From Odontesthes bonariensis (taxonomy: Eukaryota > Chordata > Actinopteri > Atheriniformes > Atherinopsidae), in assembly GCF_027942865.1 (NCBI RefSeq), contig NC_134521.1, forward strand, positions 1,123,501 through 1,187,500: a stretch of DNA of 64,000 nt, given 5' to 3'. Positions 14,901 to 51,328 of the stretch are shown one piece after another. The translations under genes were made by a program, and so were the position numbers. The notes under the pieces were generated by a model, which saw only the letters and a program-made list of their open reading frames with translations, had not been told where the DNA came from and did no database searches. The number at the start of each line of letters is the position of its first letter. Position 1 is the first letter of the stretch.

Positions 14901-15607
14901 CTCCTGCTCCTCCTCGCCCTCCCCGCTGCACCCGCCCCCACCGCAGCGGCGCTTCTCGCTCTCGCCCGTGCTCATCAGAGACTCGGCGGCCTCCACCTTC
15001 CTTCCTCCGCCTCCGGCGCCAGCGGCGCCGCCCCCGCCGGGCCGCGCCTGCTCGGGCAGAGCGCCCGCGGGGGGCCCGGTGCCCGCCTCGCCCTCCTCGG
15101 CCTGCAGCACGCCGTCCTCTGTCCGTCGCAGCCTGCCGCCGCCGCTGCCGCGCTGCCACTCGCAGCCGTGCGACCTGCTGCTGCTGAAGCCGGGGCTGAA
15201 GCGGCGCCGCGACCCCGAGCGGCCGTGCGCCCGCCCCGTGCTGGACTTCACCAAGATGACGCAGGTACGCTCCATCAGATCATTCAGGTCATGTGACCCG
15301 CTGGGTTTGTTGTCTCACGCCTTGTTGTCTCCCGCAGACGCGCAGCATCGACCCGCAGGCGCTGGAGCGCGGCGGCCGGCCGGGCGGCGGCGGGGACGTC
15401 TGCATGGACGTCTTCATGGGGGACTTCCGGGGGTCCTGCTCGCCGGCCGAGTGCCTGGGCAGGACCAGCATCGGACCGCTCAGCGAGAGCGACGAGGAGT
15501 GCCGCGAGGACGAGGAGGAAGACGGCGAGGAGCGCGAGGCGGCGCAGCAGCTCGTGTTCGAGCGGGACTGCACGGAACTGGACCTGAACCTGATAGAAGA
15601 AAACTGA
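8914..15607 (+). CDS. fam53c: FAM53C protein
   Basis: Four coding exons can be traced: 8914-8991, 9981-10038, 14285-15264 and 15338-15607. All have GT-AG borders and compatible phases, giving about 461 residues; human FAM53C has 392. The first exon reads VVALLVESLRKQTLE, aligning with the FAM53 N terminus (MITLITEQLQKQTLD). Exon 3 carries the family motif KRHCRSLSVPEDLSR (about residues 132-146), then WRPSASRVWTPV, the QRRFSLSP motif and a basic LKRRRDPER stretch. The protein ends ELDLNLIEEN, the family C terminus. FAM53 proteins are nuclear regulators with 14-3-3-type phospho-motifs, and FAM53C is reported to bind the kinase DYRK1A. The protein is unusually rich in Pro, Ser and Ala. The oddity is the start: no in-frame ATG occurs in the first exon. 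A perfect Kozak ATG at 8909 is out of frame, and GTG stands where ATG is expected. Intron 2 holds a 76-bp array and a hAT element. Confidence 0.88.
9357..9835. repeat. 55-bp minisatellite in fam53c intron 1
   Basis: About 8.5 near-identical 55-bp copies containing GGTTCCACAGAGAGGGGCCT and GGCTCTGCCTCCCAAACTGG. It lies between the exons ending 8991 and starting 9981. The apparent minus-strand ORFs are repeat readthrough. Confidence 0.95.
10563..12256. repeat. 76-bp satellite in fam53c intron
   Basis: About 22 copies of a ~76-bp unit containing AACAGCAATAACTCCTTAGA and GTGTACGTCACCTTCATTAG followed by TTAGC/GCTAA segments that can pair (TTAGCTAAGCTGTTAGCGTTAGC). Some units lack 6-12 bp. The array is interrupted at 12257 by a hAT-like element and its last partial unit resumes at 13882-13924. 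Confidence 0.95.
12257..13881. mobile_element. Non-autonomous hAT-like element (1.6 kb)
   Basis: Starts CAGTGTTGTATAAAGTAC and ends ACTATACAACACTG, giving 12-bp terminal inverted repeats of the hAT CAGTG...CACTG type. It sits inside the 76-bp satellite, whose sequence continues on both sides (GTGTACGTC | TCACCTTC). Only TC is visibly duplicated, so an 8-bp target duplication is not evident. No transposase ORF is intact. Subterminal AAGTA repeats are typical of fish hAT derivatives. Confidence 0.75.
14069..14270. repeat. 34-bp array of E-box/DR1 units
   Basis: Six tandem units, each starting GTGTGGTCACATGACCTTTG or GTGTGGTCACATGACCTCTG. It ends 15 bp before the fam53c exon 3 acceptor (AG at 14283-14284). 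Each unit holds the palindromic E-box GGTCACATGACC. Units 1, 4 and 5 have TGACCTTTGACC, a nuclear-receptor DR1. Confidence 0.9.
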
Positions 15608-15874
15608 CAGGTGTGCAAAGGATGGCTGTCCTCTGTTTTCTAACCTGACCCCGCCCCCCGACCCGCCATCAGCTCAGCGCTCGCCGCCTCCTCTCCACCA
15701 ATCAGCAAGGCTCTCAGGAACAACGCCTCCTCTCATTGGACGAGCTGATTGACCACGACAGTGATGATGTGACCTCCCACGTTAACCTGAGAGGCGACAG
15801 GTACGCGCCGCCACTCTGACACCCGAACGCATCGCCACGCGCTCCGGGCTTTAACTAGGCTCCGCCCACTTAAC
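15608..15874 (+). other. fam53c 3' flank with possible 62-nt intron
   Basis: Four bases after the stop, ACAG|GTGTGC could be a donor. TTCTAAC and a pyrimidine-rich run precede CATCAG at 15672. The following segment 15673-15801 is open (LSARRLLSTNQQ...), followed by GACAG|GTACGC. This could be a spliced 3' UTR or an unrelated exon; I do not recognise the peptide. Confidence 0.3.
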
Positions 15875-22790: not shown

Positions 22791-23450
22791 TCAGTTTTTC
22801 TCAGCAGGGAGGCTCTCTGTGGTGGTGCTCTGCTCCGACGCCCCGCTGGTGGAGGAGCTGGAGGTGGAGGTGGAGGTTAGGGCCGGGGCGGAGGCCACGC
22901 TGATGGGGACGATCCGCTCCTTCCCGTCGGGCAGCGCCCTCTCCCGGGGGGCCTGGATCTGCAGCCGGCCCCCCAGCAGCGAGCAGGTGACGGTGTCGGC
23001 GCTGACGCCCTCGGGCAGCTGGAACTCCTGCCTGAACTCCTGGCTGCTGTAGGAGCAGCAGCCCGCCCCGTCCTCCTGCTTCCTCTCCGTCCGGCCGCTC
23101 ACCCGCAGCTTCCGGCCCACCTGTTTGACGGACAGCTCCTCCGGGGAGAACTCCTGGGTGTCCAGGCTGAGGGCGAAGCCGCCCCCGTCCTGCCCCAGCT
23201 CCTGGAAGGCGATGGGCCGGAAGCCCCCCGCGGAGAGGGACGTGGGGTCGATCTCCTGGAAGATCTGGTGGTGCAGCCGCTCCATGTACTCCATGTTCTG
23301 CCGCATCTCCTGCATGTGCTGCAGCATCTCCTGCTCCATGCGGTAGAAGAGCGGCCGGGCCTCGGGCCACAGGCTGCGCACCGGCCAGTGCAGGTCCAGG
23401 AAAGGCCGGAGGGGGAGGTGGGCCGGCTGGAAGGCGCTGGGACACAACAT
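22791..23450 (-). CDS. hsp30: HSP30-type small heat-shock protein (hspb11-like)
   Basis: An intronless 219-residue protein. The N terminus, MLCPSAFQP...WPVRSLWPE, matches the fish/amphibian HSP30 subfamily, as does the helix with HHQIFQEID (residues 60-68). The alpha-crystallin domain spans about residues 88-172, with FSPEELSVKQVGRKLRVSG (101-119), EFRQEFQLPEGV and LLGGRLQIQAPRE. It is followed by an IVPI motif (180-183) and a Ser/Thr-rich tail. Such proteins are ATP-independent cytosolic chaperones that form oligomers and hold unfolded clients after heat stress. The frame is open upstream, but the ATG at 23450 gives the family N terminus and has A at -3. Promoter signals lie 55-110 bp upstream. 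There are no intact neighbours within 6 kb. The precise paralogue within the HSP30 group cannot be fixed by eye. Confidence 0.93.
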   Translation of the reverse strand: MLCPSAFQPAHLPLRPFLDLHWPVRSLWPEARPLFYRMEQEMLQHMQEMRQNMEYMERLHHQIFQEIDPTSLSAGGFRPIAFQELGQDGGGFALSLDTQEFSPEELSVKQVGRKLRVSGRTERKQEDGAGCCSYSSQEFRQEFQLPEGVSADTVTCSLLGGRLQIQAPRERALPDGKERIVPISVASAPALTSTSTSSSSTSGASEQSTTTESLPAEKN

Positions 23451-23505
23451 CCTGTTTGCTTTGCTTTGGTTTGGGAGGTCTGACCCAGCCTCTGTCTGCC
23501 TGCTG

Positions 23506-23557
23506 CTTTTATACGCCGACACCAGAACCAGAACCACTCCCACAGCCGGAAAGTTCC
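23506..23557 (-). promoter_or_regulatory. hsp30 promoter: TATA box and heat-shock element
   Basis: Minus strand: GGAACTTTCC (23548-23557) is an inverted nGAAnnTTCn pair, with another GGAA 11 bp upstream. TATAAAAG follows at 23513-23506, 56 bp before the ATG. The arrangement fits HSF1-driven transcription. Confidence 0.75.
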
Positions 23558-23667
23558 AGCAGCATTCCTGCGCCTGTGCGTCTGTGCGCTCACCTGCTTT
23601 ATTAAGACTGTGACCGAGGAAGAGACGGGAATAGAACAAAGCTGAGACGTGCCGGCATGTGGCAGCT

Positions 23668-28859: not shown

Positions 28860-29330
28860 CAGCTACTGTTTCACTGACGGAAACAATGGGCTCAATGCCC
28901 GTCACACACAGTCGCATTCAGACAGAGCCGTTCTAAGAGCGCTCCTCCTGGAATGCCGTTCTGATAACCGCCCTTCCCCAGCGGAACTGTTTCAGTCTGC
29001 ATTCCCACATGAGTCGGACCTGATAGGGACTGATGCGGCGCAGCCGTCTGCGACAGCGACGTGTTACTTTAGCGCCACATTCAACAACAAAACGGAACAA
29101 AACAAAACCCGGTAAAAGTAAGGAGAGAAGAAGAAAACAGCACCAAGAAGCTAACATGGAGAGCGGGGAGGCCACCGTGTTTATGGTCTGCATGATGGTG
29201 ATATTAATCATGGACGATCACATCAGGCGTCTAACATGGAGGCTGGAAGAGCTCACAGAGAGAGTCAGGAGACGAAGGATGGAGCGCAGGCTCATTTTAA
29301 CTTATTAAACACGCCAAGGTTGTGTCCGTG
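28860..29330 (+). other. Possible Harbinger-associated ORF fragment
   Basis: ATG at 29156 reads MESGEATVFMVCMMVILIMD, then an Arg-rich stretch (RVRRRRMERR) and a stop at about 29308. The hydrophobic start plus Arg block resembles N termini of fish Harbinger transposases, but the similarity is weak and the catalytic part is absent. Confidence 0.25.
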
Positions 29331-29369
29331 TCGTATGAGGAAACATTTCAGCCTGACAACATGACAAGA

Positions 29370-29530
29370 GGCGGAGCTACCGACCACCAAGGGGCGGAGC
29401 TACCAGCCACCAAGGGGCGGAGCTACCGACCACCAAGGGGCGGAGCTACCAGCCACCAAGGGGCGGAGCTACCGACCACCAAGGGGCGGAGCAACAAACC
29501 ACCAAGGGGCGGAGCTACCGACCACCAAGC
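29370..29530. repeat. 23-bp minisatellite
   Basis: Seven units of GGGGCGGAGCTACCGACCAC plus CAA, alternating CCGACC and CAGCC. GGGCGG repeats are Sp1-like. Confidence 0.95.
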
Positions 29531-29595
29531 ACCTCCGTCAGGTGTGTTCCTATAGAACCCAGAACAGATCCAGCTGAGGAGAAGGAGCTGAAATG

Positions 29596-29712
29596 GTTCC
29601 AGGAACTGAGGGCCCTGGTCCCGAGTTCCCGAGGGCCGTGGTCCCTAGTTCCCGAGGGCCCTAGTTCCCGAGGGCCGTGGTCCCTAGTTCCCGAGGGCCC
29701 TGGTCCCTAGTT
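29596..29712. repeat. Short GC-rich repeat
   Basis: Units of GTTCCCGAGGGCC(G/C)TGGTCCCTA, about five imperfect copies. Part of it recurs at 30100-30112 beyond the next element. Confidence 0.85.
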
Positions 29713-30105
29713 CCATCCATCCATCCATCCATCCATTATCTATACCGCTGAATCCGTCAGTCGGGTCGCGGGCGGGCTGGAGCCTATCCCAGCAGTCAAT
29801 GGGCGAGAGGCGGGGTACACCCTGGACAGGCCACCAGTCCATCGCAGGGCCACATAGAGACATACGAGACAAACAACCATGCACGCTCACACTCACTCCT
29901 TAGGACAATTTAGAGATGCCAATCAACCTAACATGCATGATTTTTGGACAGTGGGAGGAAGCCGGAGTACCCGGAGAGAACCCACGCATACACGGGGAGA
30001 ACATGCAAACTCCACACAGAAAGGCCCCAGCTGGGTGTTGAACCTGGAACCTTCTTGCTGTGAGGCGACGGTGCTAACCACCACACCACCGTGCAGCCCC
30101 ATGTC
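29713..30105. mobile_element. High-copy teleost dispersed repeat with (ATCC)n end
   Basis: (CATC)n then TATCTATACCGCTGAATCCG, GGAGCCTATCCCAGCAGTCA, CACCCTGGACAGGCCACCAG, GGAGTACCCGGAGAGAACCC and ending CACCACACCACCGTGCAGCC. This is one of the most abundant fish repeats; I do not assign the class. It interrupts the TCCCTAGTTCC repeat, whose sequence reappears right after it. Confidence 0.8.
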
Positions 30106-30255
30106 CCTAGTTCCTGTATGTGCGAATAAGGAAAAAAAAAACTCGTTCCTGTAGTAGTTTTCAATCCCTGAACTTAACTGATGGCATCTTAATGTCTCTT
30201 TTGTTTGATTTATGGATAAAATGGACTAAAACCGCTGATCAGGGTAAACTTCTCA

Positions 30256-30261
30256 TTTATT
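30256..30261 (-). terminator. drc2 polyadenylation signal
   Basis: AATAAA on the minus strand, 63 nt past the drc2 stop codon. Confidence 0.6.
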
Positions 30262-30323
30262 TTACAGTCACACAGTTACAGTTACAGACTTTAATTCAGA
30301 CCCAGACGTGTGTCCCTGCGGCC

Positions 30324-33300
30324 TTAGAAGTGTTTGACGGCGTGCGCAGCTTCAATGACGGTGTGGCGTTGGTCGGAGTGGGGGGGAACGGAGGTGGTCG
30401 GGGCCCGGGGGGCCCGGGAGGCCGTCAGCGGACTGTGGTATTGGTCCAGGCCGTCGGCGTGCTGACTCAGCAGGAGCTCCAGCTGCTCGTTCTCTCGGCT
30501 CAGATCCTCTCGGTGTTTCCTCAGAGCTGCACGGTGCAGCAGAGCGGCGTTCAGGCGCTGCTGCACCTGCTGCACCTGCTGCTGATGCTGCACCTGCTGC
30601 TGCACCTGCTGCTGATGCTGCACCTGCTGCTGCTGCTGATGCTGCACCTGCTGCTGATGCTGCACCTGCTGCTGCACCTGCTGCTGCTGCACCTGCTGCT
30701 GCACCTGCTGCTGATGCTGCACCTGCTGCTGATGCTGCACCTGCTGCTGCACCTGCTGCACCTGCTGCTGCTGCACCTGCTGCTGCACCTGCTGCTGCAC
30801 CTGCTGATGCTGCACCTGCTGCTGATGCTGCACCTGCTGCTGCTGCACCTGCTGCTGCTGCACCTGCTGCTGCACCTGCTGATGCTGCACCTGCTGCTGC
30901 TGCACCTGCTGCACCTGCTGCTGCACCTGCTGCACCTGCTGCTGATGCTGCACCTGCTGCTGCTGCACCTGCTGCTGCACCTGCTGCACCTGCTGCACCT
31001 GCTGCACCTGCTGCAGATCCTCAACCTCACCAACCTGCAGACAGACGCAGAGCTGTTCAACATCGGTTTCAACATTCGGGTCCCCCCACCCAGGAGTCCC
31101 CCGGCCCGAGAGTCCCTGACCCCCCTACCTAGAGTCCCCCGACCCCAGAGTCCCCGACCCCCCTACCTAAAGTCCCCTGACCCGAGAGTCCCCCGGACCC
31201 CGGCTGACCCCGGCCTACCTGTGCAGGCCTGCTGCTCACCTGTCTGTGCTCCTCTGGTGGGACTGATGATGCTGACAGGACAAGATGTCCTGTTGATGTC
31301 CTGCTGATGTTCTCCTCCAGCTTGCGGCACATTTCAGCGACACGTAGAATCTTCTCGCCCTGAAAGACCGAGCAGAAGCTGAAGGGGACCAGGTGTGGAC
31401 AGGTGTGTGGACAGGCGGGTGGACAGGCGTGTGGACAGATGTGTGGACAGGTGTGTAGACAGGTGTGTGGACAGGTGGGTGGACAGGCGGGTGGACAGGT
31501 GTGTGGACAGGTGTGTGGACAGGTGGGTGGACAGGCGGGTGGACAGGTGTGTGGACAGATGTGTGGACAGGTGTGTAGACAGGTGTGTGGACAGGTGGGT
31601 GGACAGGCGGGTGGACAGGTGTGTGGACAGGCGGGTGGACAGGTCTGTGGACAGGTGTGTAGACAGGTGTGTGGACAGGTGGGTGGACAGGTGGGTGGAC
31701 AGGCGGGTGGACAGGTGTGTGGACAGGCGGGTGGACAGGTGTGTGGACAGGTGTGTGGACAGGTGGGTGGACAGGTGGGTGGACAGGCGGGTGGACAGGT
31801 GTGTGGACAGGCGGGTGGACAGGTGTGTGGACAGGTGTGTAGACAGGTGTGTGGACAGGTGTGTGGACAGGTGGGTGGACAGGCGGGTGGACAGGCGTGT
31901 AGACAGGCGTGTGGACAGGTGTGTGGACAGGTGGGTGGACAGGTGTGTGGACAGGCGAGTGGACAGGCGTGTAGACAGGCGTGTGGACAGGCGGGTGGAC
32001 AGGTGTGTAGACAGGTGTGTGGACAGGTGTGTGGACAGGTGGGTGGACAGGCGGGTGGACAGGCGTGTAGACAGGTGTGTGGACAGGTGTGTGGACAGGT
32101 GGGTGGACAGGCGGGTGGACAGGCGTGTAGACAGGCGTGTGGACAGGTGTGTGGACAGGTGGGTGGACAGGTGTGTGGACAGGCGAGTGGACAGGCGTGT
32201 AGACAGGCGTGTGGACAGGCGGGTGGACAGGTGTGTAGACAGGTGTGTGGACAGGTGTGTGGACAGGTGGGTGGACAGGCGGGTGGACAGGCGTGTAGAC
32301 AGGCGTGTGGACAGGTGGGTGGACAGGTGTGTGGACAGGTGTGTGGACAGGCGTGTGGACAGGCGTGTGGACAGGTGTGTGGACAGGCGTGTGGACAGGT
32401 GTGTGGACAGGTGTGTGGACAGGCGGGTGGACAGGCGTGTGGACAGGCGGGTGGACAGGCGTGTGGACAGGCGAGTGGACAGGCGTGTAGACAGGCGTGT
32501 GGACAGGCGGGTGGACAGGTGTGTGGACAGGTGTGTGGACAGGTGTGTGGACAGGCGGGTGGACAGGCGTGTGGACAGGCGTGTGGACAGGCGGGTGGAC
32601 AGGTGTGTGGACAGGTGTGTAGACAGGTGTGTGGACAGGTGTGTAGACAGGCGGGTGGACAGGTGTGTGGACAGGTGTGTGGACAGGTGTGTAGACAGGC
32701 GGGTGGACAGGTGTGTAGACAGATGTGTGGACAGGCGTGTGGACAGGTGTGTAGACAGGTGGGTGGACAGGTGTGTGGACAGGTGTGTGGACAGGTGGGT
32801 GGACAGGTGGGTGGACAGGTGGGTGGACAGGCGGGTGGACAGGTGTGTGGACAGGCGGGTGGACAGGTGTGTGGACAGGTGTGTAGACAGGTGTGTGGAC
32901 AGGCGGGTGGACAGGTGTGTGGACAGGTGTGTAGACAGGTGTGTGGACAGGTGTGTGGACAGGTGGGTGGACAGGCGGGTGGACAGGCGTGTAGACAGGC
33001 GTGTGGACAGGTGTGTGGACAGGTGGGTGGACAGGTGTGTGGACAGGCGAGTGGACAGGCGTGTAGACAGGCGTGTGGACAGGCGGGTGGACAGGTGTGT
33101 AGACAGGTGTGTGGACAGGTGTGTGGACAGGTGGGTGGACAGGCGGGTGGACAGGCGTGTAGACAGGCGTGTGGACAGGTGGGTGGACAGGTGTGTGGAC
33201 AGGTGTGTGGACAGGCGTGTGGACAGGCGTGTGGACAGGCGTGTGGACAGGTGTGTGGACAGGCGTGTGGACAGGTGTGTGGACAGGTGTGTGGACAGGC

Positions 33301-36300
33301 GGGTGGACAGGCGTGTGGACAGGCGGGTGGACAGGCGTGTGGACAGGCGAGTGGACAGGCGTGTAGACAGGCGTGTGGACAGGTGTGTGGACAGGTGTGT
33401 GGACAGGCGGGTGGACAGGCGTGTGGACAGGCGTGTGGACAGGCGGGTGGACAGGTGTGTGGACAGGTGTGTAGACAGGTGTGTGGACAGGTGTGTAGAC
33501 AGGCGGGTGGACAGGTGTGTGGACAGGTGTGTAGACAGGCGGGTGGACAGGTGTGTAGACAGATGTGTGGACAGGCGGGTGGACAGGCGGGTGGACAGGC
33601 GTGTGGACAGGCGTGTGGACAGGTGTGTGGACAGGTGGGTGGACAGGTGGGTGGACAGGTGTGTGGACAGGTGTGTGGACAGGCGGGTGGACAGGTGGGT
33701 GGACAGGTGTATGGACAGGCGTGTGGACAGGTGTGTAGACAGATGTGTGGACAGGCGTGTGGACAGGTGGGTGGACAGGCGTGTGGACAGGCGTGTGGAC
33801 AGGTGGGTGGACAGGTGTGTGGACAGGCGTGTGGACAGGTGTGTGGACAGGTGTGTGGACAGGTGTGTGGACAGGCGGGTGGACAGGTGTGTGGACAGGT
33901 GGGTGGACAGGTGGGTGGACAGGCGTGTGGACAGGTGTGTGGACAGACGGGTGGACAGGTGTGTGGACAGGCGGGTGGACAGGTGTGTGGACAGGTGTGT
34001 GGACAGGCGGGTGGACAGGCGTGTGGACAGGCGTGTGGACAGGTGTGTGGACAGGTGGGTGGACAGGTGTGTGGACAGGCGTGTGGACAGGTGTGTGGAC
34101 AGGCGTGTGGACAGGTGTGTGGACAGGCGTGTGGACAGGCGTGTGGACAGGCGGGTGGACAGGTGGGCGGAGCTTCACCTTGGTGACCACAGCCTGCAGC
34201 TTCTTGATGGCGCCCTCGCCCTGGACGGTGAGCTCTGTGAGCTGCTTCCTCGCCGCTCGGCGATCTCGGGCCAGCTGGTCGCGCAGCTTGTGACACTGTT
34301 GGTTGACTTGGACTCGGGCGTCCGTCAGGTTCTGCTTCGTCACCTTGTTTTCTACTTCGCTGGACATCATCTGCTCCGTCAGCTGGGTGTTTTTTTCCTG
34401 ACAGACGGAGGTAAACGGGGTCAGAAACACCGTCACAAAGATGGGGAACGATGTGCCAGATGTCCTGGAAGTCTTCAAAATAATTCCTCACAAACACAGA
34501 AACAAAAACAAAAACAAACTTTAATATTCATTACGGATCTGTTGAACAGACGGATAATCAGGAAGGCTGATGCCATTCTTTCCTTTACGTTCCAGTTCCA
34601 GTTCCTGCCTCCTGGCCCCGGCTCAGACTTCCTGGGATGAACAGTAACAGGTACCAGCACAGGGTAGGAGGAGCCGCACCTGATTGGTTGATACTGTTTC
34701 TGTTTCTTGGGTCCATGGTCCGCACTGTGGGGGCTGATTCTGATGTTTCAGCACACTGTATCATCCCTCCCTCAGACTTTCTATGGTTTGTCTTTGATCT
34801 GATGTCTTTTTCACTTTATAAAAAGCTGAATCTGAAAACTCGGCTGTGTGGTGTCACCACAGGGGGCGCTATAGGTTGAACTGTCAGTGGTGGTAATTTA
34901 GGAGAAGAAGTAGTTCTAACAGTGAACAAACCTGAAGGAGGAAAAAAACAACAACAGCTGTGGTGGACATCCACAAGATGGAGAGGGCTCTTCTTCAGGA
35001 ATTACTTTAATCTTTGGGAATATAAAATCTGATCTTCGGGGGTTAGCTGGAGTCTGCCGGGGTCAGGATTTAGTCTCATGAGTGTGGAACACTGACCTGC
35101 AGCCTCATCAAGTTCCTCAGGTCTGAGCCGATATCTTGGCAGTCTCTGGAGACCTGCTGGTCCAGCCTCTTCAGCTTGGTGCCGCTGAGCTGCAGAGCCT
35201 CCAGGTTCTCCGCGGTGCCGTCCTGCAGGTCCTTCCTGGTGACCCTGTACACCTGTCCAAGGGAGACGCAGACATGCATCACACAGCTGAGGGAAGGCTG
35301 GAACCACCACAGATAGGTGTGAGCTGCCCCCCTCAGATACCTGGTGCATCCTCAGCGTCTTCTCGTACAGCTCCTGGGCCTCCTCCATCTCGTCTTTGTT
35401 GTGCTGCTCCGCAGACAGGACATAGTCCTGCATCTGGACCTGCTGCTGCTGGGACTGGGCCAGCATCTGCTTCCTGTAAACACCACACGGCTTTATGGGA
35501 GAGGACACGAAAGCAGGTCCACCAGGGACCACCAAGTACAGCTCCTCACCCCTCAACATCAAACCTTCACAACAGAGAAAGAACTGAGACCAGTGGACTG
35601 GTTTCATGAACACATTCCCCCGATGCTGAGCAGAGATCAGCTGAAAACCGCCTGCTGGACCCGGAGAAAAGAAACGACACCAGAGGTGGCCTCCTCGCAT
35701 GGCTGAGACGACCAAAGAGCCCCAAGGAGGACCAAAGAGGACCAAAGAGCCCCAAAGAGGACCAAAGAGCCCCAAAGAGGACCAAAGAGCACCAAAGAGG
35801 AGGACCAAAGAGCACCAAAGAGGAGGACCAAAGAGCACCAAAGAGGAGGACCAAAGAGCCCCAAATAGGACCAAAGAGCACCAAAGAGGAGGACCAAAGA
35901 GCCGCAAAGAAGACCTAAGAGCACCAAAGAGGACCAAAGAGGACCAAAGAGCCCCAAATAGGACCAAAGAGCCGCAAAGAAGACCTAAGAGCACCAAAGA
36001 GGACCAAAGAAGACCAAAGAGCCCCAAAGAGGACCAAAGAAGACCTAAGAGCACCAAAGAGGACCAAAGAAGACCAAAGAGCCCCAAAGAGGACCAAAGA
36101 GCCCCAAAGAAGACCTAAGAGCACCAAAGAGGACCAAAGAGGACCAAAGAGGAGGACCAAAGAGCCCCAAAGAGGACCAAAGAGGACCAAAGAGGAGGAC
36201 CAAAGAGGAGGACCAAAGAGGACCAAAGAGCACCAAAGAGGAGGATCAAAGAGCCCCAAAGAGCCCCAAAGAGGAAGAAAGAGGAGGACCAAAGAGGACC

Positions 36301-39300
36301 AAAGAGGACCAAAGAGCACCAAAGAGGATCAAAGAGCCCCAAAGAGGACGAAAGAGGAGGACCAAAGAGGACCAAAGAGCCCCAAAGAGGACGAAAGAGG
36401 AGGACCAAAGAGGACCAAGGAGGACCAAAGAGCACCAAAGATGACCATAGAGCCCCAAAGAGGACCAAAGACCACCAAAGAGGACCAAAGAGGAGGACCA
36501 AAGAGGACCAAGGAGGACCAAAGAGGACCAAAGTGCACCAAAGAGGACCAAAGAGCCCCAAAGAGGACCAAAGAGGACCAAGGAGGACCAAAGAGCCCCA
36601 AAGAGGACGAAAGAGGAGGACCAAAGAGGACCAAGGAGGACCAAAGAGCACCAAAGATGACCATAGAGCCCCAAAGAGGACCAAAGACCACCAAAGACCA
36701 CCAAAGAGGACCAAAGAGGAGGACCAAAGAGGACCAAGGAGGACCAAAGAGGACCAAAGTGCACCAAAGAGGACCAAAGAGCCCCAAAGAGGACCAAAGA
36801 GGACCAAAGAGCACCAAAGAGCCCCAAAGAGCCCCAAAGAGCACCAAAGAGGACCAAAGAGGACCAAAGAGGACCAAAGAGGACCAAAGAGCACCAAAGA
36901 GGACCAAAGAGCCCCAAAGAGGACCAAAGAGCACCAAAGAGGACCAAAGAGGACCAAAGAGGACCAAAGAGGACCAAAGAGCACCAAAGAGCCCCAAAGA
37001 GGACCAAAGAGGACCAAAGAGCCCCAAAGAGGACCAAAGAGGACCAAAGAGCCCCAAAGAGGACCAAAGAGCACCAAAGAGCACCAAAGAGCCCCAAAGA
37101 GCACCAAAGAGCACCAAAGAGGACCAAAGAGGACCAAAGAGCCCCAAAGAGCCCCAAAGAGGACCAAAGAGCCCCAAAGAGGACCAAAGAGGACCAAAGA
37201 GGACCAAAGAGCACCAAAGAGGACCAAAGAGCCCCAAAGAGGACCAAAGAGCACCAAAGAGGACCAAAGAGGACCAAAGAGGACCAAAGAGGACCAAAGA
37301 GCACCAAAGAGCCCCAAAGAGCCCCAAAGAGGACCAAAGAGCCCCAAAGAGGACCAAAGAGCACCAAAGAGGACCAAAGAGGACCAAAGAGGACCAAAGA
37401 GCACCAAAGAGGACCAAAGAGGACCCGGGACTTATCTGAACCGGTGGGAAAAGCTCGTGGAAGGGTTCAGGTATAATGTGGAACCGCAGCGCCATCTAAT
37501 GAGGAACTGTGGTCAAACACGTGGTCACGGAGTTATTAAACCGAGCTGTTTCTAGTTATCTGTATTTATTGATTTAATTATGTATTTACGTCCCATCTAA
37601 AGCACGTTCAACAGAGGCGGGTCGTATCTGTAAGGCAGCAGTTCAAACATGTAAAACACTGATCTGTGGAGCTGAGCTTTTATGTGTAAATACGGTGACG
37701 CCTCAACTCTGGAACTTTATCAGGTTCATCAGCCATGTACATGTGACATCACTCAGTGGGGTCACATGACTGAAAGGATCAGATTATTGGCTAAATTACA
37801 ATCAGACTGAGCTGAGCAAGGGTAATTAACCTTGGATATATGGCGGTGAATGAATGGGATCAGAGGAAGCCGTTAGCTCATGCAGCTAACAGGAAGTGTT
37901 TGGCCGTTAGCTCATGCAGCTAACAGGAAGTGTTTGGCCGTCAGCTCATGCAGCTAACAGGGAGTGTTTGGCCATTAGCTCATGCAGCTAACAGGAAGTG
38001 TTTGGCCGTCAGCTCATGCGGCTAACAGGAAGTGTTTGGCCATTAGCTCATGCAGCTAACAGGAAGTGTTTGGCTGTCAGCTCATGCGGCTAACAGGAAG
38101 TGTTTGGCCGTTAGCTCATGCAGCTAACAGGAAGTGTTTGGCCGTTAGCTCATGCAGCTAACAGGAAGTGTTTGGCTGTTAGCTCATGCGACTAACAGGA
38201 AACGTTTGGCCGTTAGCTCATGCAGCTAACAGGAAGTGTTTGGCCGTTAGCTCATGCAGCTAACAGGAAGTGTTTGGCCGTTAGCTCATGCAGCTAACAG
38301 GAAGTTTTTGGCCGTTGGTTCATGCAGCTAACAGGAAGTGTTTGTATGCTGACCTCACTAAAAAGTCGGGGTTGAGCTGTTTCAGTCAGGTTCAGAGAAC
38401 CCACAGGTGTTTCAAGCATCTCAATAAGAGCTCAGAAATACGCCACCTTTTATGCAGTTCACTGCCAGAGGGAAAGGAGAGCGATGGATCGGAGATGGCT
38501 CCGCCCCCGCAGAGGTGAGGGAGGCATGCGGTGGGTGGACTAAATAACAGAAAAAGATCAGAAGTGTGTTCATGTACTCTTAAAAAAATAAAATCGTGTG
38601 GAAATGTGTTCAGAATCCAGTGGTCACTACAGTGATGTCATCAGTGATGTCACCACATGTAAATTAGGGGATTAAATGACCTTCATATCTGAGCAGCTTT
38701 AATCTGCAGCCTGTTTAAAATCTGTCAGAATGAAGTTTTCTGTTAAAACTCGGAGCTGAAAGGGTTGAGGTTGGCTCTGGCGACCCGTGCACTCACTTCT
38801 CAGAGCTGCAGGTGGCGCTCAGGCCCCGCAGGCCGCCCTCCCACTGCTGCTGCAGCGCCGCCAGCCGCCCGTCCTGCTGCGCCCACAGACGCTCCACGTG
38901 CTGCAGGTGGCTGCGCTGCACCTGGGCCGCCTGGCACGCCGACTCCTGCAGGTCCCGCACCAGCCTCTGCAGAGACAGCACCGAGTCAGCACCGAGTCAG
39001 CAGGTCAGCACCGAGTCAGCAGGTCAGCACCGAGTCAGCACCGAGTCAGCAGGTCAGCGAGTCAGCAGGTCAACGGGTCAGCAGGTCAACGAGTCAGCAG
39101 GTCAACGGGTCAGCAGGTCAACGGGTCAGCAGGTCAACGAGTCAGCAGGTCAGCGAGTCAGCACAGAGTCAGCAGGTCAACGAGTCAGCAGGTCAGTGAG
39201 TCAGCACAGAGTCAGCAGGTCAACGAGTAAGCACAGAGTCAGCACAGAGTCAGCACAGAGTCAGCAGAGAGTCAGCACAGAGTCAGCAGAGAGTCAGCAC

Positions 39301-42300
39301 AGAGTCAGCACAGAGTTAGCACAGAGTCAGCACAGAGTCAGCACAGAGTTAGCACAGAGTCAGCACAGAGTCAGCACAGAGTTAGCACAGAGTCAGCACA
39401 GAGTCAGCACAGAGTCAGCACAGAGTCAGCACAGAGTCAGCACAGAGTTAGCACAGAGTCAGCACAGAGTTAGCACAGAGTCAGCACAGAGTTAGCACAG
39501 AGTCAGCACAGAGTCAGCACAGAGTTAGCACAGAGTTAGCAGGTCAACGAGTCAGCACAGAGTTAGCACAGAGTCAGCACAGAGTCAGCACAGAGTTAGC
39601 ACAGAGTTAGCAGGTCAACGAGTCAGCACAGAGTTAGCACAGAGTCAGCACAGAGTCAGCACAGAGTCAGCACAGAGTCAGCACAGAGTCAGCACAGAGT
39701 CAGCAGGTCAACGAGTCAGCACAGAGTCAGCACAGAGTTAGCACAGAGTCAGCACAGAGTTAGCACAGAGTCAGCACAGAGTTAGCACAGAGTTACCAAA
39801 GAGTCAGCACAGAGTCAGCACAGAGTTAGCACAGAGTCAGCACAGAGTCAGCACAGAGTTAGCACAGAGTCAGCACAGAGTCAGCACAGAGTCAGCACAG
39901 AGTTAGCACAGAGTTAGCACAGAGTCAGCACAGAGTCAGCACAGAGTTACCACAGAGTCAGCACAGAGTTAGCACAGAGTCAGCACAGAGTTAGCACAGA
40001 GTTAGCACAGAGTCAGCACAGAGTCAGCACAGAGTTAGCACAGAGTCAGCACAGAGTTAGCACAGAGTCAGCACAGAGTTACCACAGAGTTAGCACAGAG
40101 TCAGCACAGAGTTAGCACAGAGTCAGCAGAGAGTCAGCACAGAGTCAGCAGAGAGTCAGCACAGAGTTAGCACAGAGTTAGCACGTCAACGAGTCAGCAC
40201 AGAGTTAGCACAGAGTCAGCACAGAGTTAGCACAGAGTTAGCACAGAGTCAGCACAGAGTCAGCACAGAGTTAGCACAGAGTCAGCACAGAGTTACCACA
40301 GAGTTAGCACAGAGTTACCAAAGAGTCAGCACAGAGTCAGCACAGAGTTAGCACAGAGTCAGCAGAGAGTCAGCACAGAGTTAGCACAGAGTTAGCACGT
40401 CAACGAGTCAGCACAGAGTCAGCACAGAGTCAGCACAGAGTCAGCACAGAGTCAGCAGGTCAACGAGTCAGCACAGAGTCAGCACAGAGTCAGCAGGTCA
40501 ACGAGTCAGCAGGTCAGCGAGTCAGCACAGAGTCAGCAGGTCAACGAGTAAGCACAGAGTTAGCACAGAGTCAGCACAGAGTTAGCACAGAGTCAGCACA
40601 GAGTCAGCACAGAGTTAGCACAGAGTCAGCACAGAGTCAGCACAGAGTTAGCACAGAGTCAGCACAGAGTTAGCACAGAGTTAGCACAGAGTCAGCACAG
40701 AGTCAGCACAGAGTCACCAAAGAGTTACCACAGAGTCAGCACAGAGTTAGCACAGAGTTACCACAGAGTCAGCACAGAGTCAGCACAGAGTCAGCACAGA
40801 GTTAGCACAGAGTGAGCACAGAGTCAGCACAGAGTCAGCACAGAGTTAGCACAGAGTCAGCACAGAGTTACCACAGAGTCAGCACAGAGTCAGCACAGAG
40901 TTAGCACAGAGTCAGCACAGAGTCAGCACAGAGTCAGCAGGTCAACGAGTCAGCACAGAGTCAGCACAGAGTCAGCACAGAGTCAGCACAGAGTCAGCAC
41001 AGAGTTACCACAGAGTCAGCACAGAGTCAGCACAGAGTCAGCACAGAGTTACCACAGAGTCAGCACAGAGTCAGCACAGAGTTAGCACAGAGTCAGCACA
41101 GAGTCAGCACAGAGTCAGCACAGAGTTAGCACAGAGTCAGCACAGAGTCAGCACAGAGTCAGCACAGAGTTAGCAGGTCAACGAGTCAGCACAGAGTCAG
41201 CACAGAGTCAGCACAGAGTTAGCACAGAGTCAGCACAGAGTCAGCACAGAGTTAGCACAGAGTTACCACAGAGTCAGCACAGAGTTACCATAGAGTCAGC
41301 ACAGAGTCAGCACAGAGTTACCACAGAGTCAGCACAGAGTCAGCACAGAGTCAGCACAGAGTCAGCACAGAGTTAGCACAGAGTCAGCACAGAGTTAGCA
41401 CAGAGTTACCACAGAGTCAGCACAGAGTTAGCACAGAGTTACCACAGAGTTACCACAGAGTCAGCACAGAGTTAGCACAGAGTCAGCACAGAGTTACCAC
41501 AGAGTTAGCACAGAGTTACCACAGAGTCAGCACAGAGTCAGCACAGAGTTAGCACAGAGTCAGCACAGAGTCAGCACAGAGTCAGCACAGAGTCAGCACA
41601 GAGTTAGCACAGAGTCAGCAGAGAGTCAGCACAGAGTTAGCACAGAGTCAGCACAGAGTTACCACAGAGTCAGCACAGAGTCAGCACAGAGTCAGCACAG
41701 AGTCAGCACAGAGTTAGCACAGAGTCAGCACAGAGTTAGCACAGAGTCAGCACAGAGTTAGCACAGAGTCAGCACAGAGTCAGCACAGAGTTAGCACAGA
41801 GTTAGCAGGTCAACGAGTCAGCACAGAGTTAGCACAGAGTCAGCACAGAGTCAGCACAGAGTCAGCACAGAGTTAGCACAGAGTTAGCAGGTCAACGAGT
41901 CAGCACAGAGTTAGCACAGAGTCAGCACAGAGTCAGCACAGAGTCAGCACAGAGTCAGCACAGAGTCAGCACAGAGTCAGCAGGTCAACGAGTCAGCACA
42001 GAGTCAGCACAGAGTTAGCACAGAGTCAGCACAGAGTTAGCACAGAGTCAGCACAGAGTTAGCACAGAGTTACCAAAGAGTCAGCACAGAGTCAGCACAG
42101 AGTTAGCACAGAGTCAGCACAGAGTCAGCACAGAGTTAGCACAGAGTCAGCACAGAGTCAGCACAGAGTTAGCACAGAGTTAGCACAGAGTCAGCACAGA
42201 GTCAGCACAGAGTTACCACAGAGTCAGCACAGAGTTAGCACAGAGTCAGCACAGAGTTAGCACAGAGTCAGCACAGAGTCAGCACAGAGTTAGCACAGAG

Positions 42301-45054
42301 TCAGCAGGTCAACGAGTCAGCACAGAGTTAGCACAGAGTCAGCACAGAGTTACCACAGAGTTAGCACAGAGTTACCAAAGAGTCAGCACAGAGTTAGCAC
42401 AGAGTCAGCAGAGAGTCAGCACAGAGTTAGCACAGAGTTAGCACGTCAACGAGTCAGCACAGAGTCAGCACAGAGTCAGCACAGAGTCAGCACAGAGTCA
42501 GCAGGTCAACGAGTCAGCACAGAGTCAGCACAGAGTCAGCAGGTCAACGAGTCAGCAGGTCAGCGAGTCAGCACAGAGTCAGCAGGTCAACGAGTAAGCA
42601 CAGAGTTAGCACAGAGTCAGCACAGAGTTAGCACAGAGTCAGCACAGAGTCAGCACAGAGTTAGCACAGAGTTAGCACAGAGTCAGCACAGAGTTAGCAC
42701 AGAGTCAGCACAGAGTTAGCACAGAGTTAGCACAGAGTCAGCACAGAGTTAGCACAGAGTCAGCACAGAGTTACCACAGAGTCAGCACAGAGTCAGCACA
42801 GAGTCAGCACAGAGTTAGCACAGAGTCAGCACAGAGTCAGCACAGAGTCACCAAAGAGTTACCACAGAGTCAGCACAGAGTTAGCACAGAGTTACCACAG
42901 AGTCAGCACAGAGTCAGCACAGAGTCAGCACAGAGTCACCACAGAGTCAGCACAGAGTCAGCACAGAGTCAGCACAGAGTCAGCACAGAGTTACCACAGA
43001 GTCAGCACAGAGTCAGCACAGAGTCAGCACAGAGTCAGCACAGAGTTACCACAGAGTCAGCACAGAGTCAGCACAGAGTCAGCACAGAGTTAGCACAGAG
43101 TTAGCACAGAGTCAGCACAGAGTTAGCACAGAGTCAGCACAGAGTTAGCACAGAGTCAGCACAGAGTCAGCACAGAGTTAGCACAGAGTTACCACAGAGT
43201 CAGCACAGAGTCAGCACAGAGTCAGCACAGAGTCACCACAGAGTCAGCACAGAGTCAGCACAGAGTCAGCACAGAGTTACCACAGAGTCAGCACAGAGTT
43301 AGCACAGAGTCAGCACAGAGTCAGCACAGAGTCAGCACAGAGTTAGCACAGAGTCAGCACAGAGTCAGCACAGAGTCAGCACAGAGTCAGCACAGAGTCA
43401 GCACAGAGTCAGCACAGAGTTACCACAGAGTCAGCACAGAGTTAGCACAGAGTCAGCACAGAGTCAGCACAGAGTCAGCACAGAGTTACCACAGAGTCAG
43501 CACAGAGTTACCACAGAGTCAGCACAGAGTCAGCACAGAGTCAGCACAGAGTTAGCACAGAGTCAGCACAGAGTTAGCACAGAGTCAGCACAGAGTTAGC
43601 ACAGTCAGCACAGAGTCAGCACAGAGTTACCACAGAGTTAGCACAGAGTCAGCACAGAGTCAGCACAGAGTTAGCACAGAGTTAGCACAGAGTCAGCACA
43701 GAGTCAGCACAGAGTTAGCACAGAGTCAGCACAGAGTTACCACAGAGTTAGCACAGAGTCAGCACAGAGTCAGCACAGAGTCAGCACAGAGTTAGCACAG
43801 AGTCAGCACAGAGTTAGCACAGAGTCAGCACAGAGTCAGCACAGAGTTACCAAAGAGTTAGCACAGAGTCAGCACAGAGTCAGCACAGAGTCAGCACAGA
43901 GTTACCACAGAGTTACCACAGAGTCAGCACAGAGTTAGCACAGAGTCAGCACAGAGTCAGCACAGAGTCAGCACAGAGTCAGCACAGAGTTAGCACAGAG
44001 TCAGCACAGAGTTAGCACAGTCAGCACAGAGTCAGCACAGAGTTACCACAGAGTTAGCACAGAGTTAGCACAGAGTCAGCACAGAGTTAGCACAGAGTCA
44101 GCACAGAGTCAGCACAGAGTTAGCACAGAGTCAGCACAGAGTTAGCACAGAGTCAGCACAGAGTCAGCACAGAGTTAGCACAGAGTCAGCAGAGAGTCAG
44201 CACAGAGTTAGCACAGAGTCAGCACAGAGTTAGCACAGAGTCAGCACAGAGTTAGCACAGAGTCAGCACAGAGTTACCACAGAGTCAGCACAGAGTCAGC
44301 ACAGAGTCAGCACAGAGTCAGCACAGAGTTACCACAGAGTCAGCACAGAGTCAGCACAGAGTCAGCACAGAGTTACCACAGAGTCAGCACAGAGTTACCA
44401 CAGAGTCAGCACAGAGTCAGCACAGAGTCAGCACAGAGTCAGCACAGAGTCAGCACAGAGTTAGCACAGAGTCAGCAGGTCAACGAGTCAGCAGGTCAAC
44501 GAGTCAGCACAGAGTCAGCAGGTCAACGAGTCAGCAGGTCAACGGGTCAGCAGGTCAGCAGGTCAACGAGTCAGCAGGTCAGCAGGTCAACGAGTCAGCA
44601 GGTCACTGAGTTAGCAGGTCAGCAGGTCACCGAGTCACCGAGTCAGCAGGTCAGCGCACGGCGGGGGGCCGGCCGGAGACCGTCTCACCTGGATGATGGA
44701 GTTCAGCTGGTCCAGCTGCCTCTCGAACGTCTGCCGCAGCACGGCGACGTCCTGGCGCAGCTCGGCGTCTCGAGCCTGGCGCAGGACGAACCTCCAGCCC
44801 TCGTTGAGCTTCAGCAGGTTCAGCGCCATGTTCCTGTGCTCCTTCTGCAGCTTGTCCTGCTCCACAGAGTTCAGAGGTCAGAGGTCAGAGGAACGCGCTG
44901 GGAATGATGTTCGACCACACGTTACCTTCAGGTACAGCGTGAGCGTCTCCTCCTTCTTCCTCGCCATCTCCTCCTCAGCCTGAGCTCGCTGCTGCCGCTG
45001 CAGGAGGCGCTCCTCCTCCGTCTTCTCAACACCTTTCTTGGCTTTCTTCGACAT
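30324..45054 (-). CDS. drc2: Dynein regulatory complex subunit 2 (CCDC65)
   Basis: Eight exons (minus): 45054-44926, 44856-44689, 38966-38797, 35473-35341, 35252-35097, 34397-34179, 31359-31240 and 31034-30324. All have GT-AG borders and consistent phases, giving about 601 residues; human DRC2/CCDC65 has 484. The start MSKKAKKG...EEEMARKKEE, then DKLQKEHRNMALNL and LRQTFERQLDQ, matches the family N terminus. GEKILRVAEMCRKLEE and the end VIEAAHAVKHF match its C-terminal part. DRC2 is a coiled-coil subunit of the nexin-dynein regulatory complex that links outer-doublet microtubules in motile cilia; CCDC65 loss causes ciliary dyskinesia. Oddities: residues about 373-524 are a Gln/Val/His repeat, the family segment with FWKRYNKV is not found, and introns 2, 3 and 6 are almost wholly satellite DNA. 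The middle exons are the most diverged. An X-box promoter lies upstream. Confidence 0.9.
30558..31013 (-). repeat. Coding CAG/GTG triplet array in drc2
   Basis: On the minus strand, CAG, GTG and some CAT codons repeat in groups (QQV, QQQV, QHQQQV) for about 152 codons without one frameshift or stop. It encodes residues about 373-524 of DRC2, between VGEVEDL and QRLNAALLHRAAL. Confidence 0.9.
31390..34165. repeat. 12-bp satellite in drc2 intron 6
   Basis: About 230 units of GTGTGGACAGGT with variants GGGTGGACAGGC and GTGTAGACAGGC. It fills the intron between the exons at 34179 and 31359. A ~1-kb higher-order duplication is visible: the order around 31850-32700 recurs at 32930-33560. The unit is 12 bp, so three frames per strand stay open for over 900 codons; these are not genes. 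Confidence 0.97.
34398..35096. other. drc2 intron 5, unique sequence
   Basis: About 700 bp between two drc2 exons. It holds an AACAAAAAC repeat at 34500-34517 and ACCACAGGGGGCGCTATAGG at 34857, a partial CTCF-like motif. No other gene seen. Confidence 0.6.
35700..37428. repeat. 10-bp purine-rich satellite in drc2 intron 3
   Basis: About 170 units of GGACCAAAGA, with GCACCAAAGA and GCCCCAAAGA variants. The left half has scattered 3-bp GAG insertions; the right half (36840 onward) is regular. It lies between the exons at 38797 and 35473. Confidence 0.96.
37429..37857. other. drc2 intron 3, unique sequence
   Basis: Unremarkable intronic sequence between two tandem arrays. No gene seen. Confidence 0.5.
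37858..38345. repeat. 34-bp minisatellite with hairpin motif
   Basis: Fourteen units containing GTTAGCTCATGCAGCTAACA and GGAAGTGTTTGGCC. TTAGCTcatgcAGCTAA is an inverted repeat that can fold into a 6-bp stem in every unit. Confidence 0.95.
38346..38790. other. drc2 intron 3, unique sequence
   Basis: Between the 34-bp array and the exon ending at 38797. The frame 38288-38518 starts in the repeat and is not a gene. Confidence 0.5.
38985..44640. repeat. 12-bp satellite in drc2 intron 2 (5.7 kb)
   Basis: About 470 units of GTCAGCACAGA(G) and GTTAGCACAGAG with ACC and CAGAGA variants. Both edges are made of GTCAGCAGGTCAACGA(G) units, which also punctuate the interior. A block of over 1 kb recurs (for example 39540-40560 and 41790-42610). 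It fills the intron between the exons at 44689 and 38966. Confidence 0.97.
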
Positions 45055-45065
45055 CCCTCCTTCCT

Positions 45066-45170
45066 GCTGTAGTGCTGCAGCTTCAGCGGCAGCAGGCAGT
45101 GATACGAGGGGAGAGAAAATAGGGCCAAGAGATTGTGAGGTCGGACTTTTTCCTGGAGAACCATTTTGTG
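45066..45170 (-). repeat. Dispersed repeat next to drc2 exon 1
   Basis: The reverse complement reads GAAAAAGTCCGACCTCACAA, then TCTTGGCCCTATTTTCTCTC and ATCACTGCCTGCTGCCGC. The same order occurs forward at 62230-62298. This places an old repeat across the drc2 5' leader. Confidence 0.75.
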
Positions 45171-45364
45171 ATGCAAATGTATTACTCTGTTGAACGCATA
45201 TTGTTTTGTTTGTTTGTTTGTTTTTATTCAGTCACAATAAACATCAAATGTGTTCAGTACAATCATAACATTTAAGTGACTGAAAAGGCTGAAGCGTAAT
45301 GCTGTTGAACAAAATGAAGCTACCCATCAACCTATATTTTTACAAATACTAAAGTAAGAAGAAA

Positions 45365-45620
45365 AATAATAGATAGTAAGTACTTTATTCATCCCAATTT
45401 GGGAAATTGTGTTGCAGCAGCATACAGTATAAAGATATGTAAACAATTAAAGGAAAAACAAGCAAATAAAATAGAATAAAATAAAAATGGTGAACAAACA
45501 TTAGCTATTTATAGTAAAAAGAGAAGAGAAAAAAAACAGAATTGCATCCAATAAAGTAAAAAAAATAGAAGAATAATGAAGCAAAATCATAAAAAAATAA
45601 AATAAAATAAAAATCCTTCA
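45365..45620 (-). mobile_element. LINE 3' tail (L2/Rex1 type)
   Basis: ATAGATAGTAAGTACTTTAT, TCATCCCAATTTGGGAAATT and GCAGCAGCATACAGTATAAA: the same tail and internal sequence as 26361-26625. Confidence 0.7.
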
Positions 45621-45837
45621 CAATTTATAAATACTTGTAGCCCTCAAAAATTGTTTTGAGAAGCAAAACGCTTTATTTTTTAAACCCCAGCCAACTAGCC
45701 GGACTACCTTCATCAGCACCAAAACGAGGCTGGAACTCTGCTCACAGGACGCAGCAGGGGGTAAGAAGATGTTCAGAAATGATGTTGCTGATATGGGATG
45801 TTACACAGCTTCATGTCAAAAGAGGCGAACTGTCCCT

Positions 45838-46320
45838 TTAAGCTGCTCAGAACTGAACTAACTCTGGTTCTGCCTCAGATTCTGGGTTTATGTTCATGTT
45901 GGAACATGTTTCAGTGAATCTCTGCAGCTGTTACCATGGAAACATCTGCAGATATTCACTTTAAAGCTGCTCAGAACTGAACTAACTCTGGTTCTGCCTC
46001 AGATTCTGGGTTTATGTTCATGTTGGAACATGTTTCAGTGAATCAGCTGCACCTGTTACCATGGAAACATCTGCAGATATTCACTTTAAAGCTGCTCAGA
46101 ACTGAACTAACTCTGGTTCTGCCTCAGATTCTGGGTTTATGTTCATGTTGGAACATGTTTCAGTGAATCTCTGCAGCTGTTACCATGGAAACATCTGCAG
46201 ATATTCACTTTAAAGCTGCTCAGAACTGAACTAACTCTGGTTCTGCCTCAGATTCTGGGTTTATGTTCATGTTGGAACATGTTTCAGTGGATCAGCTGCT
46301 TCCTGTTTCCATGGAGATGA
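45838..46320. repeat. 125-bp tandem repeat carrying RFX X-boxes
   Basis: Nearly four copies of a 124-125-bp unit containing AAGCTGCTCAGAACTGAACT and GGAACATGTTTCAGTGAATC. Copies 1-3 each hold GTTACCATGGAAAC (45930-45943, 46055-46068, 46179-46192), a full X-box; copy 4 has the weaker GTTTCCATGGAGAT. Confidence 0.92.

Positions 46321-49576: not shown

Positions 49577-51328
<1,752 letters not shown>

Follow-up and report, generated by a model that had tools for sequence, protein, structure and literature searches.

An in-frame repeat of 152 codons in the last exon of a fish drc2 gene: probably a young, slippage-grown insert tolerated without heptad register

How does the gene for a coiled-coil axonemal protein come to carry an array of 152 repeat codons in its coding sequence, and does such an array lengthen the coil? 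The question is raised by drc2 (ccdc65) in the 64-kb stretch of DNA analysed here (the window), where an in-frame repeat tract lies at 30558..31013 on the minus strand. The original prediction described about 152 CAG, GTG, and CAT codons in the last drc2 exon, read without a frameshift, and proposed that their valines are spaced as in a heptad repeat, so that the expansion may lengthen a coil. The description of the tract proved exact: its 456 bp consist of 109 CAG, 33 GTG, and 10 CAT codons and no other codon, all 152 of them in exon 8, where they form residues 373-524 of a 601-amino-acid model and are in frame with both flanks of the exon.

The gene was assembled by reading the minus strand to locate exons and then joining them; the joined frame is open to the stop codon. 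It has a start codon, eight exons, seven GT/AG introns, and a stop, and the model comprises 601 amino acids. Exon 1 (44926..45054) holds the start codon (MSKKAKKG) and is followed by exons 2 (44689..44856), 3 (38797..38966), 4 (35341..35473), 5 (35097..35252), 6 (34179..34397), and 7 (31240..31359; GEKILRVAEMCRKLEE...), all on the minus strand. The last exon, exon 8 (30324..31034, minus strand), is composed of VGEVEDL, the tract, a conserved C-terminal helix, a tail, and the stop codon TAA; its splice acceptor (ctgtctgcag/GTTGGT) has the top acceptor score of the stretch scanned. A candidate polyadenylation signal, AATAAA (30256..30261, minus strand), is found 62 bases past the stop codon, although this hexamer is common in the window (129 places). 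Just beyond the 3' end of the gene, at 29712-30110, (TCCA)n is followed by a dispersed-repeat-like element, presumably of a type typical of teleosts. The gene is located between a frame matching HSP20 (22794-23561, minus strand) and one matching an early growth response zinc-finger protein (49580-50653, minus strand); a frame matching FAM53 is also present in the window (14260-15645, plus strand).

That the gene encodes DRC2, a coiled-coil axonemal protein, as originally proposed, is borne out by domain and structure matches. The NYD-SP28 domain (PF14772) was identified at residues 22-123 with 67.4 bits against a cut-off of 22.1, and five PDB sequences matched at E <= 1e-5 (best, 3.5e-42), four of which carry the name DRC2; the fifth, 8tek_B, is named "coiled-coil protein, putative" and belongs to entry 8TEK, the Tetrahymena "N-DRC base plate". 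The C-terminal tail found no match in the PDB; its IEAAH sequence we take to be the DRC2 tail. No relatives of exon 6 were found in viral contigs, and none of the first 148 amino acids in bacterial and archaeal genome contigs. The drc2 gene thus looks complete, and the tract lies in its final coding exon.

Glutamine makes up 72% of the 152 residues of the tract, and it lacks the long uninterrupted glutamine run of a pure polyQ stretch, the longest run being 5. It is parsed into 33 valine-ended units of six types, with mixed steps of 9-24 bp: QQQV (nine copies), QQV (eight), QHQQQV (seven), QQQQV (six), QHQQV (two), and QHQQQQQV (one), followed by a terminal QQ. An 18-mer of the tract, with up to two mismatches, matched the window 33 times, always within 30558-31016 (mean in 100 shuffles, 0.01); by this one 18-mer, no copies of the array were found elsewhere in the 64-kb window. 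Units tend to be longer towards the 3' end of the coding strand (Spearman 0.42, P = 0.014), and its 5' end has four plain QQV units; a polarity of growth is possible. A second array of triplet type is present at 1314-2027 on the minus strand: 238 stop-free codons that, if coding, would read mostly Glu with Val (VEEEEEVVEEEE...), a frame that had no Pfam match at E <= 0.001.

Codon usage in the tract is uniform. Valine is encoded by GTG in 33/33 cases inside the tract vs 7/27 in the remaining gene and histidine by CAT in 10/10 vs 1/16, while the glutamine codon CAA is used in 0/109 cases inside vs 5/53 in the remaining gene; all ten CAT codons stand in the context VQHQQ. This uniformity indicates DNA copying rather than amino-acid choice. 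No long internal duplication beyond that seen in unit shuffles was detected in the tract (longest repeated word, 18 residues; P = 0.89), and the absence of a long duplicated block fits growth by small-step slippage. The setting is rich in tandem repeats, which by our count (intervals merged by hand) occupy 10,765 of the 12,925 bp of drc2 introns (about 83%) and ~39% of the whole window, with unit lengths from 2 to >100 bp. In the exons, they occupy 0 bp in exons 1 and 3-7 and 41 bp in exon 2. The gene offers a clean case: a repeat-flooded gene in which the sole large exonic array is of the triplet type.

Does the intact frame of the tract tell of selection? The tract is stop-free in all three coding-strand frames; thus, the absence of stops is little evidence. 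The two flanks, VGEVEDL on the upstream side and the conserved helix on the downstream side, are read in the same frame, and this evidence is real but modest. The original prediction contrasted the tract with frameshift-prone arrays in the introns. These arrays served as controls, the off-period spacings between exact motif matches being counted as phase slips. The contrast is borne out by the 11-bp array in intron 2, which together with a 16-bp array spans 38972..44655 (27/298 spacings off period, counted over 39155-44520), and by the 10-bp array of intron 3 (13/86). It is not borne out by the 34-bp array, also in intron 3 (0/10), or by the 12-bp array of intron 6 (31393..34165), which fills 2,773 of the 2,819 bp of its intron with 0/224 spacings off period. 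The latter array is noncoding and still has no slips; thus, phase can be kept without coding selection, and the lack of a frameshift in the tract is weak evidence of selection.

The proposed heptad spacing of the valines did not hold. The 32 intervals between them measure 4 (nine), 5 (eight), 3 (seven), 6 (seven), and 8 residues (one), so that the spacing said to occur "mainly", 3 or 4 residues, accounts for 16/32. The best global heptad register places 11/33 valines at a/d positions, below the means for spacing shuffles (13.1) and random placement (12.7), and 98.7% of 2,000 spacing shuffles equalled or exceeded it. Only 4/31 adjacent spacing pairs read 3-4 or 4-3, none of the 125 28-residue windows of the tract has at least six of eight core positions filled, and local register agreement is 0.553 vs 0.539 in spacing shuffles (P = 0.34). 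Valine periodicity was also considered at heptad (3.5 residues; power, 0.17), hendecad (3.67), and 3.6-residue periods; there is no peak at any of them, and over periods of 2.5 to 13 residues the power is highest at 3.07. The tract therefore does not show the alternating 3-4 spacing that would place hydrophobic residues at a/d positions, and a valine-zippered heptad coil is not supported. On the other hand, an AlphaFold2 model of exon 8 from one sequence predicts one helix from residue 2 to residue 196, spanning the tract, with a pLDDT that averages 65 and is about 50 in mid-tract but 80-90 at the conserved C-terminal helix. Of the proposal that the tract lengthens a coil, a helix is thus possible, with low pLDDT in mid-tract, whereas a heptad coil lacks support. 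The tract is probably helix-prone, without heptad register; as a helix, it would be about 23 nm long.

The position of the tract within DRC2 is best seen in the part of exon 8 that follows it (30324..30557, minus strand), the helix of which, RLNAALLHRAALRKHREDLSRENEQLELLLSQHADGLD, corresponds in the alignment to RYNKV...QYLDGIS in the six DRC2 sequences from the PDB. The site itself reads MENFWKRYNK in 9fqr and in human 8j07, LNNFYKRYNK in 8tek (Tetrahymena), LNCFFRRYNK in 7ju4 (identical in sequence to 8glv, Chlamydomonas), LERFWTKYNK in 9e5c, and LDRFWVKHNK in 9y6s, as against LQQVQQRLNA in the window protein. VQQRLN is thereby aligned with F[WYF]x[RK][YH]N, a motif in 6/6 PDB DRC2 sequences, and the Phe-aromatic pair that all six contain is absent from the window protein at the tract. 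When exon 8 is reduced to one QQVQQ unit, it fits the PDB DRC2 segment ungapped; thus, this seems to be where the array grew, in place of the aromatic pair, although the pair may have been lost earlier. By cryo-EM, C-terminal fragments of DRC1/2 are reported to build a base plate on the A-tubule, where they touch DRC4, CCDC39/40, CFAP91, and CFAP20 (PMC10504270, the source of structure 8TEK). The tract lies just before the base-plate helix, so that linker coil and anchor are parted by it. The Pfam model PF14775 scored 17 bits on the after-tract piece alone, vs a cut-off of 27, and gave no match to exon 8 as a whole or to the full protein at E <= 0.1. For the C-terminal piece without the tract, one-sequence AlphaFold2 predicts a helix at residues 2-40, with pLDDT of 95-98 over the first 30 residues; the helix is predicted equally well or better without the tract, which is therefore not needed for it.

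The region downstream of the tract is divergent. In an alignment of 46 columns, the six PDB rows agree throughout at 13, and the window protein keeps 8 of these, losing F, K, Y, L, and S. We then left out one PDB group at a time and scored it and the window protein on the same invariant columns: the window protein departs at 7/17 vs 4/17 for 9fqr/8j07, 5/13 vs 0/13 for 8tek, 6/14 vs 1/14 for 7ju4, 5/13 vs 0/13 for 9e5c, and 7/15 vs 2/15 for 9y6s. Judging from these sequences, the C-terminal divergence may reflect relaxation specific to this lineage or may be teleost-wide.

These departures, at more columns than in any left-out group, argue for a different explanation, in which the array is a symptom of decay or relaxed constraint in this copy of drc2 or in its C-terminal anchor; the 5/13 lost columns fit decay as well as tolerance, and the C-terminal helix shares only 12/38 residues with human 8j07, compared with 19/38 for Tetrahymena 8tek. 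However, every exon is open and every splice site intact, and the N-terminal part is identical to the human protein at 60/133 positions, above the 42/125 of the human-Tetrahymena comparison. Relative rates in the C-terminal region (window-unique to human-unique changes of 12:7, 9:7, 12:4, and 9:4) show a weak excess, chi-square reaching 4 with one of four outgroups. We consider decay unlikely, if still worth keeping in mind. Lengthening of the DRC1/DRC2 coiled coil, with valines at a/d positions, is a poorer prospect. DRC2 is already a coiled-coil protein, the predicted helix runs across the tract, and glutamine is reported to be tolerated at all seven heptad positions (PMC8386614), so that a Q-rich coil could do without valine; moreover, the residues beyond one ancestral QQVQQ number 147, by arithmetic exactly 21 heptads, a fit expected by chance once in seven that would speak for a coil. 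Against this stand the valine register, which most shuffles surpass, and the partner: a coil extended by 152 residues would presumably require an equal extension of DRC1.

Could the tract be absent from the mature mRNA, as an exitron or through an alternative acceptor? It holds 33 donor-like (CAG/GTG) and 109 AG acceptor-like sites, mutually in frame, and an acceptor after the tract, with an exon start at 30526, scores 4.8, more than two (3.5 and 4.3) of the seven acceptors used in drc2. However, by weight matrices, sites in the tract score no more than 0.5 (acceptors) and 4.1 (donors), below drc2's own (acceptors, 3.5-9.6, with 7.5 for exon 8; donors, 5.6-11.2), and joining exon 7 to 30526 places a stop at the second codon. 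Removal by splicing thus appears unlikely from the sequence, and we give this account a very small chance. Almost as improbable is that the exact tract length is an accident of assembly or allele: tandem repeats are reported to yield assembly errors, coding regions included (PMC6868369), but the tract is an irregular mix of six unit types without a long duplicated block, and arrays of several kilobases adjoin in the same sequence. A bolder proposal is that the tract is translated as a length-variable helical spacer between the N-DRC linker and the microtubule anchor, for which the aromatic anchor was traded away. If this were true, slippage would determine one of the mechanical dimensions of the axoneme in the sperm of this fish lineage; we regard it as a long shot.

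The explanation that we favour, and hold to be probable, is a young coding minisatellite that grew by slippage in a repeat-flooded drc2 and is tolerated as a Q-rich insert without heptad register. An interrupted CAG-type triplet array would have expanded within the last exon, through slippage at replication or through unequal exchange, starting, as the alignment suggests, at codons of a Q-rich helical turn before the base-plate helix. Each step of growth would have been a multiple of 3 and left the protein readable, so that selection against truncation would not have removed the array, and tract length may be polymorphic. If translated, the gene would yield a DRC2 in which 152 Gln, Val, and His residues are inserted between the linker coil of the N-DRC and the base-plate anchor; lacking heptad register, the insert would most likely bulge or loop out rather than pair with DRC1. 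The AlphaFold2 prediction of an unbroken helix, low in confidence and based on a single sequence, speaks against looping out.

RNA folding and aggregation were also considered. Unusual folding of the tract RNA was rejected: at -218.1 kcal/mol, it folds as expected from its codons (mean of 20 codon shuffles, -214.6; range, -220.8 to -210.5), and 152 pure CAG codons give -185.8 kcal/mol. No structured RNA families reached gathering score at 29000-46000. On the one hand, CAT (His) interruptions are reported to reduce aggregation in ATXN1 models (PMC3723530). On the other hand, interruptions that follow odd numbers of glutamines are reported to allow Q-zippers (PMC10624427), and the longest beta-face run in the tract is 20 Gln, a length not exceeded in 98% of residue shuffles (mean, 12.2) and 95% of unit shuffles (mean, 14.4). 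The number of beta-face runs of at least 6 is five, which is ordinary against shuffle means of 5.6 and 6.1. The long run speaks against a harmless insert, but as a post hoc observation it is suggestive only.

Reports of the N-DRC extend from Chlamydomonas to humans (PMC11910659), and the whole complex is reportedly lost when DRC1 or DRC2 is mutated (PMC10504270). How strictly the base-plate junction must be built could be tested on a natural DRC2 that carries 152 inserted residues there. No paper on ccdc65 was among the literature matches listed, which does not show that none has been published.

Even so, the drc2 tract is a striking example rather than a new kind, as coding VNTRs and repeat-rich fish are already known. 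The repeats of involucrin, which are likewise Q-rich and coding and are said to stem from CAG, differ from it in forming an ordered ten-codon repeat with a cross-linking role. Exonic VNTRs, such as those reported for mucins, FLG, and ACAN (PMC12776774), share with the tract an array in a coding exon, multiple-of-3 steps, and in-frame flanks; as an in-frame tandem array in a putatively translated exon, the tract would belong among them. It departs from those described in that source in its pure triplets, its mixed steps of 9-24 bp, its place in an intracellular scaffold, and its being known here from a single sequence. The CAG tract of ATXN1, as reported (PMC3723530), is also a CAG array with CAT (His) interruptions, whereas the drc2 tract is far longer (152 codons) and has 33 GTG (Val) interruptions in addition. 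Cod and haddock, reported to carry coding trinucleotide repeats (PMC5894186), are likewise fish rich in coding repeats; however, what is described there is short tandem repeats genome-wide, whereas drc2 presents one long composite array in one gene.
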